Assembly (NCBI GenBank): GCA_029582155.1
Contig: CM055897.1
Coordinates: forward strand, 3,951,001 to 4,015,000
Source of the DNA: Panopea generosa
Taxonomy: Eukaryota > Mollusca > Bivalvia > Adapedonta > Hiatellidae
Reading direction: 5' to 3'
DNA length: 64,000 nt
The position numbers and the translations under genes are program-made. Shown here piece by piece: positions 574 to 9,183 of this stretch. The notes beneath the pieces were generated by a model. The model searched no databases and had not been told where the DNA came from. It worked only from the letters and a program-made list of their open reading frames with translations. Within the stretch, counting starts at the first letter, position 1; each line of letters opens with the position of its first letter.

Positions 574-964
574 TGTCATTGGATAGCGACAACAGCCTAG
601 TAAAGTCCATTTTGATTGGGATTGACAGAATGAGTATGACCAGTCCAGTATCTAGTGTGTGGTCGATGTCACCAATGGGCTCGCCAGTGATATCTGTCGT
701 GTCTTCCTTGACTGCCATATCCCAGGACTCTAACCTCAGTTATGGAATGCATCCAGGGATGCCTTTGTCAAAACAGTCTATCCCCAGGCACTCGTCAACA
801 CTTCACTCATCATCATTCACGTCTGTGTCATCGATGCCACTTGGATCTTCGGGCTCTGTGGACTCTTCGAAAGACTCGCATTTGGTCAACACAACACCCA
901 GTGTTACACATGTCTGTGCCATATGTGGAGATATAGCATTGGGCAAAAACTACGAAGTATATAG
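574..964 (+). CDS. RXR-like nuclear receptor exon: A/B region and start of DNA-binding domain (copy 1)
   Basis: The exon encodes the transactivation-type A/B region and the first half of zinc finger 1 of a retinoid X receptor-like protein. The frame is open throughout and reads LDSDNSLVKS, SPVSSVWSMSP, SQDSNLSYGMHPGMP, KQSIP, HSSSFTSV, HLVN and then HVCAICGD, the order found in invertebrate RXRs. It is bounded by a CAG acceptor (571-573) and an AG/GTATTT donor (965), leaving phase 2, exactly where RXR genes are split before the Ser-Cys-Glu-Gly-Cys P-box. The usual RASGKHYGVY of RXR is changed to IALGKNYEVY. The true start codon lies in an upstream exon outside the window, since one base is needed to complete the first codon. 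RXRs normally act as nuclear dimers on direct repeats. This is a divergent paralogue, and whether it is expressed is unknown. Confidence 0.85.
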
Positions 965-1282
965 GTATTTAAATACTTTATTTACTTGCCATAATTAAAA
1001 TGATTGCATTTTAATCTGTCGGTCTGAAAAGCTGGTATCCTTTCTGTTTTTAGCAATTTAAATCCATTCTTTTCCAATTTTAGTTGAAATGTTTATTAAA
1101 AGAGAGACTATGTTGAAATTGATAACCAACCAAATAGCCTAAATTGCTTCTGATTCAGTCCTTAAATTATCTTTGTCAAATACTTCCTCATGTTTGGACA
1201 AAACATATTGGCAAAATGTAAATTTGTTAGGAGTGAAAAATATGTCGAAAGGTGTAGGAGTGCTTCATTTTTTGAGGAAAGT

Positions 1283-1492
1283 AAACTTAAGCTCAGTTTA
1301 GATGGTAGAGCTTCTGACCAGGGGTCTTGAGTTTGAATCCCTACCTGACCACAGTCTCAATGATGATTGATTAAGACATTGTGCCTCATCATCATCCATC
1401 TCTCACAACCGCTGATTCAAGTGGGAAAGTTATCAGAGATGGGGGTGCTCGGTTTAACCTTCCAGGACCATAGGTTGTTAGATTATGAAGCT
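1283..1492 (+). mobile_element. tRNA-derived SINE, family 2 (degenerate copy)
   Basis: The head carries a Pol III A-box-like TAGATGGTAGAGC and a B-box-like GAGTTTGAATCCC. It is followed by a body with CTCTCACAACCGCTGATTC, AAGTGGGAAAGTTATC and AACCTTCCAGGA. The same body occurs at 9720-10050, on the minus strand at 14463-14590, and in part at 57430-57590 and 61020-61195. This copy seems to lack the ATCA-type tail. Confidence 0.65.
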
Positions 1493-1769
1493 GATCAAAA
1501 TTGCTAAATATTTAATCAATAAGTCATTATTTTTTATTCATGGTCATCTTTATTATCTCTTTATATTGTATTGTATGATTTGTCATTTCTAATCATATAA
1601 ATGGTCGGATCAATTGATTATTTAAAAGCATTCATATTTATATATAATCACAAGTTTATATCAGTTTAGGTAGTTGTGGTTTACTTTAGAATCTTTTATT
1701 TTAAATCTTGGTTCCAGTCATAATGTTAAACACATATATAACATGTGTGTACATTAGATAATGTGGGAG

Positions 1770-6551: not shown

Positions 6552-6746
6552 AGATGCTGCAAGGTGACCAGAAACCTAGTGACTGGTGTTCTATAGTATA
6601 TTACGAGTTAAACAAGAGGGTCGGACAGGCATTCCATGCATCACATTCTGATGTTTTGGTTGATGGATTTACAGACCCATCAATCAATGGTTATAGATTT
6701 TCTTTAGGTTCTCGTAGTCTTTCTTATAGACGGCAGATAAATAAAG
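6552..6746 (+). CDS. Smad MH2 domain, N-terminal exon (BMP R-Smad type)
   Basis: The translation contains [36 protein letters not shown] and RFSLG, then YRRQINKG. This is the start of the Smad MH2 domain and closest to Smad1/5/Mad, whose [20 protein letters not shown] is nearly the same. Compared with Smad1, the stretch between RFCLG and RRHIGKG is about eight residues shorter, removing the LLSNVNRNSTIENT region. The acceptor is TTATAG at 6546-6551 and the donor AAAG/GTGAGG at 6747. It needs two bases to finish the incoming codon (G+AG, Glu), which is what the RXR DBD exon donates. MH2 domains mediate receptor docking and Smad trimers. Here the domain appears without an MH1 partner. Confidence 0.85.
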
Positions 6747-8794
6747 GTGAGGTCTAGGACATCAAATATACACTAAAAAGTTTTTTTATATCTCCCCTGT
6801 AATTCAAATATTTAAATCCAATCTATATAAAACTTGGTCAGAATATTTATTGGCAAAATGTCTAGATTGAGTATTTGATAACCCAGTAGCTCCAAAGTTA
6901 CAGACCTTGAATTGGTCGAAATTTGCAAAAATAATGATGTTCCTTCTGTCTGGGATTATTTTAATCTAATCTTCATCAATTTTGGTCACACTCTATTTTT
7001 GCACAAACTAGACACTGTTCCTTATAGAAGCAGGTCATATTGACAAATGTACTAGACTGTTTCTGAATGATAATTGTCCTCCAATCATATACAGTTATTA
7101 TTCTAATACAGAGCTATATGGACCAATATGAGAAATATGAGAATTTACACATTCAAGATCTTAATAATACCGTTTAAGTAAAGATATCTTTCCTATAAGA
7201 TCAAATTAAAGTATCAAACAGTAAAAATGAACTAACTGGTGCTTTATATGTTTAATAAGTTCTGTCTTCGAATTTTTATTGTTGACATATTATAGCCTTT
7301 CAAGAGTCTCTTGTATCCGCCAACTGCAATCATCCTCTGTCATACAGCATGCATAAGGGAGTTAGTTCTCAGTTTCATTATTTTTCTACTACATTGAAAA
7401 CATTTCTCTGTTTTTTGGAGAACACCTCCAAAACCATTCAAGATAACTTTATAAAACTTCGTACACATTTCAACTTAGTGGTCAATTATAGTCCATTTTT
7501 CTATGAGGGAATTTTCTCAATGTTTTCTTTTATCTTAGAAATAAATAGCTAAAATTAGGAAATTCTTCATTTCTGGATCATTACTACAAAACCTAGTAGT
7601 GCCTGTTACTATGGGTGTTTTCAGAACTCAAAACATCTGATTAAAGTACATTAAGGTGGGAATATTAATGACTACACGTTCTAGTTGAACTTAAAATTAG
7701 TTTTATGTCCCCGCCATTTTCAATGGAGGTGTGTGTGTGGCTGGGGGGGGGGGGGGGGGGGGGGGTATAGTATCAGCGCTGTCCGTACGAAAATTGATTC
7801 CGACTATATCTTTAGTTTTAATATATAATAAACAGATTTAAACCAAATTTGGTGTGTGTTCGTATTTCGTTCCGGTCTAATGATTTTTATGGAGTTATGG
7901 GGCAATATTTTTGGACTTAGATTATTGACAAATATCAAGAAATTGGTTTCATCCCGATATCTCTTGAAGGATTGGATGGATTTGATTCATATTTGGTAGA
8001 AAGATGTATGGTGATAAACTACAGCTCAAGTTTGATTTCCGCCAAAATTCCTGTTTATTAATTAGATGTTCTCGGTTCTGAATGGCTGATAGTTTCCGGC
8101 CTCAAAATTCTTTATTGATAGACCGATTTTGACGAAAATTAATATTTGGCTTTATATCAACAAGACCCGGGTCAAGTTCGACAATGGATGGAATTGGCGT
8201 ATATTAAATAGGTGATCTGGACTCTGATTGGCTGGCAGTTTCCGACCTCTAAAATCTTGGTGGACGGATTTTGATGAAACTTGATATTTGGCTTTATTGA
8301 TATCTACAATGTAGTTACAAAGCGGGGGCATCTGTGTCAAATGGACGCATTTCTAGTTCCATTAAATATTCACTTATCTTTAAGCAAATATCTTTTTCAA
8401 ATATTGACTGCTTTGTAATTTTGTTCTGAGTATTTTAGGATAGTCAAGTTTCCCAAAGCTACTTTTTCCACTGTGACATCAATTACGCAACAATAGAAAA
8501 ATATACATTTAGTGCCATTTTAGGTAATGGTTAAGACATTTGGCAATTTTGTTACCTTGAATGCAATGAAAAATTAATTTTGACTTTACAGAATTTCAAG
8601 GAATTTTATTGATTACTTTTCCATTAGGCTACTGTATTATATTGACATGCATCTTCTACCTACATAATTATTTAGACATATCTATTTTACTGTCGTGTCA
8701 AGGAAATAATTAATATTCGAAACAATTGTATAAGATTAATGGTTGATATTAAAAGCAAATGTTGTTTGTAATGTGAGTATTCTATAACTTTCAG
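6747..8794 (+). other. Intron inside the MH2 domain
   Basis: No coding signal is seen. It holds a dispersed repeat (about 7700-8360) with a 23-base G run at 7743-7765. It ends in a CTTTCAG acceptor at 8788-8794. Confidence 0.7.
7700..8360 (+). repeat. Dispersed repeat with terminal GGGGGCATCTGTGTC block
   Basis: The repeat begins near TATGTCCCCGCCATTTTC, carries the poly-G run and a TGTCCGTACGAAAATTG block. It ends around 8325-8360 with GGGGGCATCTGTGTCAAATG and a CGCATTTCTAGTTCC tail. Its end resembles a fragment at 29308-29345 (GGGGGCATCCATGTAC, then ACACATTTCTTGTTCC), so this is a family. The class is unknown. Confidence 0.55.
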
Positions 8795-9183
8795 GTGTAC
8801 GTCTATACTATTTTAGAGGTGAAATGTTTGTTGACTGTCTCTGTGACAAGCCTATATTTGTAGAGAGTTGTTATTCTAATAATCAATACGGCTTCCATCC
8901 AACCACAGTATGGCAGATTCCTCCGGGTTACGGTTTCAAAGTCTTTAACAATCAGTACTTTAGTGATCTTCTTGGACAAAGTATGAACAATGGATTGAAG
9001 GCTGTGTATGAATTATTAAAAATGTGCACGATCAGATTGAGCTTTGTAAAGGGATGGGATAACAGATACCAGGATGTAGCAAGCTGTCCATGCTGGATAA
9101 ATATAAACCTCAATGGTCCATTACAGTGCTTGGAAAAAGTTTTAACGCAAATCATGGGATCACCAAATGATGCAATATCATCG
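8795..9183 (+). CDS. Smad MH2 domain, C-terminal exon
   Basis: The exon continues the MH2 fold: [86 protein letters not shown] and [14 protein letters not shown]. These align in order with Smad1/5/Mad. Differences include a two-residue shorter L3 loop ([11 protein letters not shown] against VKGWGAEYHRQDV) and an extra Ile before MGSP. The R-Smad C-terminal phospho-motif SSVS is not kept. Either the exon is spliced after ISS at a TCG/GTATTT donor (phase 0), or it reads through SSVF into a short hydrophobic tail ending near 9234. Splicing is favoured because exon 5 opens in phase 0. Activation by receptor Ser phosphorylation should be lost either way. Confidence 0.85.

Follow-up and report, generated by a model that had tools for sequence, protein, structure and literature searches.

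In a 64,000-nucleotide stretch of the genome of the bivalve Panopea generosa (contig CM055897.1 of GenBank assembly GCA_029582155.1, positions 3,951,001 to 4,015,000; here called the window), we found a candidate gene in which exons for an RXR-like A/B region and a two-finger DNA-binding domain (DBD) are followed, on the same strand and in the same frame, by exons for a BMP-type Smad MH2 domain. This arrangement, proposed in an initial annotation made from the sequence alone, is borne out by matches to Pfam and PDB and by a check of the exon phases. Our best reading of the locus is a lineage-specific, fast-evolving chimeric gene, a reading that rests on phase, splice signals, the shared divergence of the two modules and the fact that no alternatives were detected. 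Whether the fused gene is functional, or was until recently, we regard as evenly balanced. The exons are as follows, those marked as candidates forming a putative tail.

574 to 964, plus strand: E1, RXR-like A/B region plus the first part of zinc finger 1 (SLDSDNSLVKS...CAICGDIALGKNYEVY); identified from its frame, splice sites and a second copy at 62934-63348
2299 to 2456, plus strand: E2, the part of zinc finger 1 not encoded in E1, and finger 2 of the DBD; identified from Pfam zf-C4, an RXR alignment and the available part of PMC3774650
6552 to 6746, plus strand: E3, N-terminal part of MH2; identified from Pfam MH2 and an alignment to Smad1 in PDB
8795 to 9183, plus strand: E4, C-terminal part of MH2, up to ...NDAISS; identified from Pfam, PDB and splice scores
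10291 to 10394, plus strand: E5 (candidate), hydrophilic tail exon, phase 0 to 2; from phase chain, composition and splice scores, as for E6 to E8
10599 to 10666, plus strand: E6 (candidate), tail exon, phase 2 to 1
10917 to 11021, plus strand: E7 (candidate), tail exon, phase 1 to 1
11679 to 11965, plus strand: E8 (candidate), terminal tail exon ending ...DPRKYN and TAA, with an AATAAA at 12086
62934 to 63348, plus strand: second RXR-like A/B and half-finger exon, 65% identical to E1 over 138 aligned positions, with DNA homology extending into both flanking introns; any further exons of this copy would fall outside the window

Structure of the candidate gene

When E1 to E4 are conceptually spliced, the frame stays open for 377 codons without a stop or frameshift, and GT-AG borders are present at all joins of the exon chain. 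In this four-exon join, Pfam finds zf-C4 (PF00105, E = 9.4e-20, profile positions 2-69 of 70) and MH2 (PF03166, E = 1.6e-43, positions 2-174 of 174). The zf-C4 domain that the nuclear receptor superfamily requires is therefore present, with 9 of the 9 RXR cysteines kept, and the MH2 domain required of the Smad family is nearly full length. The nearest PDB sequences are RXR-alpha for the DBD (3dzu, E = 2.8e-28) and the Smad1 MH2 for the second module (1khu, E = 7.7e-71), and the database proteins matching the MH2 part are mostly of Smad1/5 types, with molluscan ones near the top (among the best 120 of 566 matches). A search of the window with Rfam gave no matches at gathering scores. A codon-score exon finder picked up E3 and a portion of E8 and nothing else; it was dropped because there were too few training codons.

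The junction between the modules is formed by the E2 donor at 2456, which leaves a G, and by E3, which opens with AG at 6552, so that the two make a GAG codon (E). Checking the junctions and phases confirmed this phase-1 join, as well as the in-phase join of the two MH2 exons, whose border had been misplaced by one base in the initial annotation: E4 starts at 8795 (tttcag/GTGTAC). The phase-1 end of E2 falls at GMKLN-G, the counterpart of KRE-A in the RXR T-box. According to the available part of PMC3774650, the T-box of scallop RXR runs over exons III to V, and alternative-exon insertions in scallop and snail RXR lie between the A and V of KREAVQEER; the position of the E2 break is therefore consistent with an exon border native to molluscan RXR. 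E3 opens in phase 1 near the onset of Smad MH2 similarity, and the E3/E4 border (KG/V) fits an exon border to which an internal repeat of the VHLYY...NQG segment in the mite protein P0001 points when inspected by eye. By weight-matrix score, the donor at 2456 ranks in the top 0.7% of the 4112 GT dinucleotides in the window and the acceptor at 6552 in the top 0.4% of its 3170 AG dinucleotides.

Neither module has its usual partner. The ligand-binding domain (LBD) that follows the DBD in nuclear receptors and the MH1 domain that precedes MH2 in Smads were both undetected within 64 kb: TBLASTN searches of the whole window found no match to either with five proteins (one receptor and four Smads) at E ≤ 1, and none with a larger set, 166 Smads and receptors together with a GLI stretch, at E ≤ 5. 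The latter threshold returned 337 pieces on known exons and 288 elsewhere, and the best of those elsewhere (E = 0.039) has an in-frame stop inside it. Candidates for an LBD, MH1, second MH2 or Gli zinc fingers in the window were rejected as matches no better than chance. The earlier statement that the interval between the DBD and MH2 exons holds no LBD or MH1 thus extends to the window as a whole. With the next RXR copy starting at 62934 (the second A/B exon), E2 is followed by approximately 60 kb in which no LBD can be recognised.

The gene probably ends beyond 9183, in a transcript that would continue into four short tail exons and finish near 12.1 kb. Without splicing at 9183, E4 would read through to a stop at 9232-9234, and this read-through end looks non-coding: by a composition score that uses general residue frequencies, 5628 of 5822 non-coding windows score as high. 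Scored in the same way, the candidate exons are equalled by 5 of 2052 non-coding windows (E5), 230 of 4416 (E6), 202 of 2052 (E7) and 61 of 6365 (E8), and the joined tail by none of 6352; the test is a weak one, because two of the domain exons are equalled by many (373 of 638 for E2, 1079 of 6360 for E4). The phase chain of E5 to E8 (0-2, 2-1, 1-1, 1-stop) is compatible with the phase-0 donor at 9183, the exon boundaries having been chosen so that the phases fit, and the AATAAA after E8 is one among several such sites in the stretch. The predicted tail is 187 residues long and hydrophilic. It has no Pfam family at E ≤ 1, no PDB match better than E = 0.82, and no relatives at E ≤ 10 among 169 candidates (from source proteins of about 310-987 residues).

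Divergence and constraint in the two modules

The two modules lie at similar distances from their parents. In the DBD, 44 of 72 residues (61%) are identical to human RXR-alpha, and in the MH2 domain 125 of 189 aligned residues (66%), again without a stop, are identical to the majority of 10 molluscan Smads in an alignment of 119 proteins (P0002-P0120, with P0001 left out). In five full-span Smads of the ordinary kind, two of them molluscan and themselves part of this molluscan majority, the MH2 domain has 89-98% identity to it, so the copy in E3 and E4 is far more diverged. P0001 is 87% identical, matched over only 135 of 199 positions. For the DBD the contrast is less clear-cut, because P0121, a receptor that has an LBD, reaches no more than 83% identity to human RXR-alpha.

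Functional residues are changed in both modules. The CEGCKGFF stretch of the P-box is kept, and the basic pair after it, which consists of DNA-contacting residues, is replaced: the pair following GCKxFF is KR in 45 and RR in 1 of 46 receptor matches, and EG here, so the DBD departs from RXR at this point. Compared with RXR, its basic residues (K, R) have fallen from 18 to 9 and its acidic residues (D, E) have gone from 7 to 8. In the MH2 domain the SSXS motif of receptor-regulated Smads (R-Smads) is missing: SSVS has become SSVF in the read-through, and the sequence ends in SS at the putative splice. There are also two gaps, one of 8 residues before RRxIxKG and one of 2 residues in the stretch VKGWGAEYHRQDV, which we take to be the L3 loop.

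Signs of protein-level constraint appear in both modules. When the majority MH2 sequence was allowed to change neutrally to the divergence of the candidate's MH2 under a simple base-change model, it gained a mean of 4.65 stops and was stop-free in 0.7% of 1000 runs. MH2 sites that are at least 98% conserved have changed in 43 of 150 cases, compared to 8 of 17 at intermediate sites and 13 of 22 at sites conserved below 90%; changes are rarer at conserved than at variable sites (p = 0.007 between the extremes). Starting from human RXR-alpha under the same kind of model, 2000 simulations of the DBD were free of stops in 7%, kept all nine cysteines in 0.25% and did both in 0.05%.

The second A/B exon allows a direct comparison between copies. 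All four indels between the two exons are multiples of three (3, 15, 9 and 3), as against none of ten in the flanking introns (Fisher p = 0.001), which indicates that the A/B reading frame has been kept. The Jukes-Cantor distance between the copies is 0.196 in the exon and 0.290 and 0.346 in the introns, and over 128 codons the copies differ at 22 first, 19 second and 29 third positions. A Fisher test pooling the MH2 gaps with these indels was dropped, the MH2 gaps having been counted on protein. A Forkhead_N match on the second A/B exon (E = 0.032) was below the curated cut-off and was rejected.

Origin of the locus and alternative explanations

The phase-1 junction, the strong splice sites at the join and the signs of constraint fit the exon-shuffling origin put forward in the initial annotation; that the two halves are joined in one transcript we infer. 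On this view an RXR gene was duplicated, and its 5' portion, comprising A/B and DBD and ending at the phase-1 intron of the T-box, would have become linked by way of intronic sequence to the terminal exons of a BMP-type R-Smad, itself a duplicate. MH2 would thereby have come to stand where the LBD belongs. The product would read A/B, zinc-finger module, MH2 and hydrophilic tail.

The function suggested at first, that the protein brings Smad complexes to nuclear-receptor sites, is not the one we favour, given the change of KR to EG, the drop in basic residues from 18 to 9, and the loss of SSXS and of two residues in VKGWGAEYHRQDV. The EG pair, the halved basic residues, the missing SSXS and the shortened MH2 make it less likely that the protein reads DNA in the normal way or is activated by receptors, and the retention of fold residues argues against simple decay. 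Most likely, compared with carrying activated Smads to receptor sites, is a role as a nuclear adaptor or decoy, in which the MH2 domain would bind Smad-pathway partners without a receptor-phosphorylation switch; we suggest this by analogy with inhibitory Smads, which also lack the terminal motif (PMC2657120, in the part available). Having kept its metal ligands but lost its DNA-contact charge, the zinc-finger module would then be a structural or protein-binding part and not a normal reader of AGGTCA.

Several observations weigh against a functional fusion. For the two A/B copies NG86 gives a dN/dS of 0.53 and YN00 one of approximately 1.07, so selection on the A/B residues is weak at best. A stop-free DBD was not rare in the neutral simulation. 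Among GT dinucleotides the donor at 9183 ranks in the top 17.5%, a weak score, and a phase match alone has about a one-in-three chance of arising. Decay, too, would fit the loss of DNA-contact and phosphorylation residues, and a nearby Gli-like exon on the minus strand with an in-frame stop (described below) means that decayed copies are present here. No protein with both zf-C4 and MH2 is among the best 120 of 566 matches (1471 candidates), at the head of which a fused relative of similar length would be expected because it should outscore Smads. None of the 46 receptor matches has an MH2 domain, all 46 consisting of zf-C4 and LBD, and among the matches listed none is near 100% identity and no annotated or assembled product from the species itself was seen.

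One alternative, which we consider unlikely, is that the locus holds two neighbouring genes: an RXR-derived DBD-only receptor ending soon after E2, and a separate gene for MH2 alone or MH2 plus tail. Reading through E2 meets a stop at 2474-2476, intron 2 contains eight AATAAA or ATTAAA sites (the first at 3292), and DBD-only receptors exist, making up 2 of 43 receptors in oyster (PMC4070562, available part). The second codon of E3 is an ATG (6554), which could be a start if an untranslated exon lay upstream, but by eye this methionine is near one in the Tegillarca Smad P0002 and need not be a start. A terminal E2 would need no donor, whereas the E2 donor and the E3 acceptor are both well kept.

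It is also rather improbable, in our estimation, that the exons are relics, old duplicate fragments of RXR, Smad and Gli genes that lie side by side by chance and are decaying. This would account for the loss of key residues in both modules, for the undetected LBD and MH1, for the stop in the Gli-like exon (whose Gli identity is presumed) and for the YN00 estimate near 1. It sits less easily with 377 codons free of stops and frameshifts in a sequence whose domains have fallen to 61% and 66% identity, or with the frame-keeping A/B indels, the nine RXR cysteines and the GT-AG borders at every join. An assembly misjoin inside the repeat-filled intron 2, where a tandem array has units mostly 141-173 bp apart (3529-5035), is very improbable, since the window has no N and each half is odd alone (no LBD detected up to the RXR copy at 62.9 kb; MH2 without MH1), so that one misjoin must explain both.

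If the fused gene is real, it would show how phase-1 introns allow two animal architectures that are all but fixed to be recombined, and which features are kept on reuse (fold, zinc ligands) and which surrendered (DNA-contact charge, phosphorylation switch). A wider proposal, to which we give somewhat less than even credence, is that the locus belongs to an expressed, tandemly duplicated regulator family, confined to one molluscan lineage, in which RXR fingers, the MH2 domain of a BMP Smad and a hydrophilic tail of new origin are combined; such a family would wire parts of two animal signalling pathways into one phosphorylation-independent protein. Of the two A/B exons seen, only one has its MH2 in view.

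The window also holds several repeats. The array in intron 2 (3529-5035) carries a repeated AGGTCAAGGTCA, presumably a pair of nuclear-receptor half-sites; allowing up to one mismatch, it has 17 matches in the window compared to 0.28 expected, 8 of them in 3529-5035 and 6 at 13178-13992. The array is probably a repeat family, though in a curious place. Two interspersed repeat copies (1768-1984 and 19150-19366) are 93% identical in opposite orientation and tRNA-like by eye, and ARAGORN finds no tRNA in them. Large repeat stretches at 24001-28000 and 32001-40000 translate into long repetitive frames, and GC skew shows strand asymmetry (-0.48 at 24001-28000, +0.37 at 32001-36000). On the minus strand at 43108-44643 there is a long frame resembling a terminal exon, with one in-frame stop at 43708-43710, which we take to be like the C-terminal half of Gli/Ci proteins. 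It has no Pfam family at cut-off, the window contains no Gli zinc fingers, and a Transposase_32 match on a Gli-like piece (E = 0.065) was rejected as below the curated cut-off. Together with the RXR and Smad copies, this frame suggests that fast-evolving copies of developmental regulators are clustered here.

Comparison with known proteins

We know of no protein that pairs zf-C4 with MH2, and none was reported in the titles and abstracts found by a full-text literature search. The two domains adjoin here, each without its usual partner. MH1 with MH2 and zf-C4 with Hormone_recep are among nine animal-exclusive domain pairs present in all 48 animal genomes analysed (PMC3499355, available part). 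The canonical Smad architecture is described as metazoan-specific and perhaps a product of domain shuffling, and zf-C4 occurs alone in choanoflagellates (PMC6792448, available part).

Among known proteins, RXR (NR2B) shares with the candidate the two-finger DBD, the nine cysteines, the CEGCKG P-box and the phase-1 break in the T-box, and we also take the A/B part of E1 to resemble molluscan RXR A/B regions. It differs in that the candidate has no hinge or LBD detected in 64 kb, has EG in place of KR and has half the basic residues. BMP-type R-Smads (Smad1/5/9, Mad) share the nearly complete MH2, but the candidate has no detected MH1, no SSXS, gaps of 8 and 2 residues, and zf-C4 upstream instead. 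Knirps-type NR0A proteins are nuclear receptors without an LBD. The DBD-only receptors of oyster, with a single DBD, are alike in the same respect; MH2 is not mentioned for them in the available part of PMC4070562. The 2DBD nuclear receptors, also found in molluscs, are another case of a receptor architecture altered by recombination; unlike the candidate they have an additional DBD, retain the LBD and have no MH2, as far as the available part of PMC1810520 describes them. Finally, inhibitory Smads (Smad6/7) differ in that the candidate's best matches are BMP R-Smads and that it has N-terminal zinc fingers, and they resemble it in having an MH2 domain without the terminal phosphorylation motif (PMC2657120, available part).

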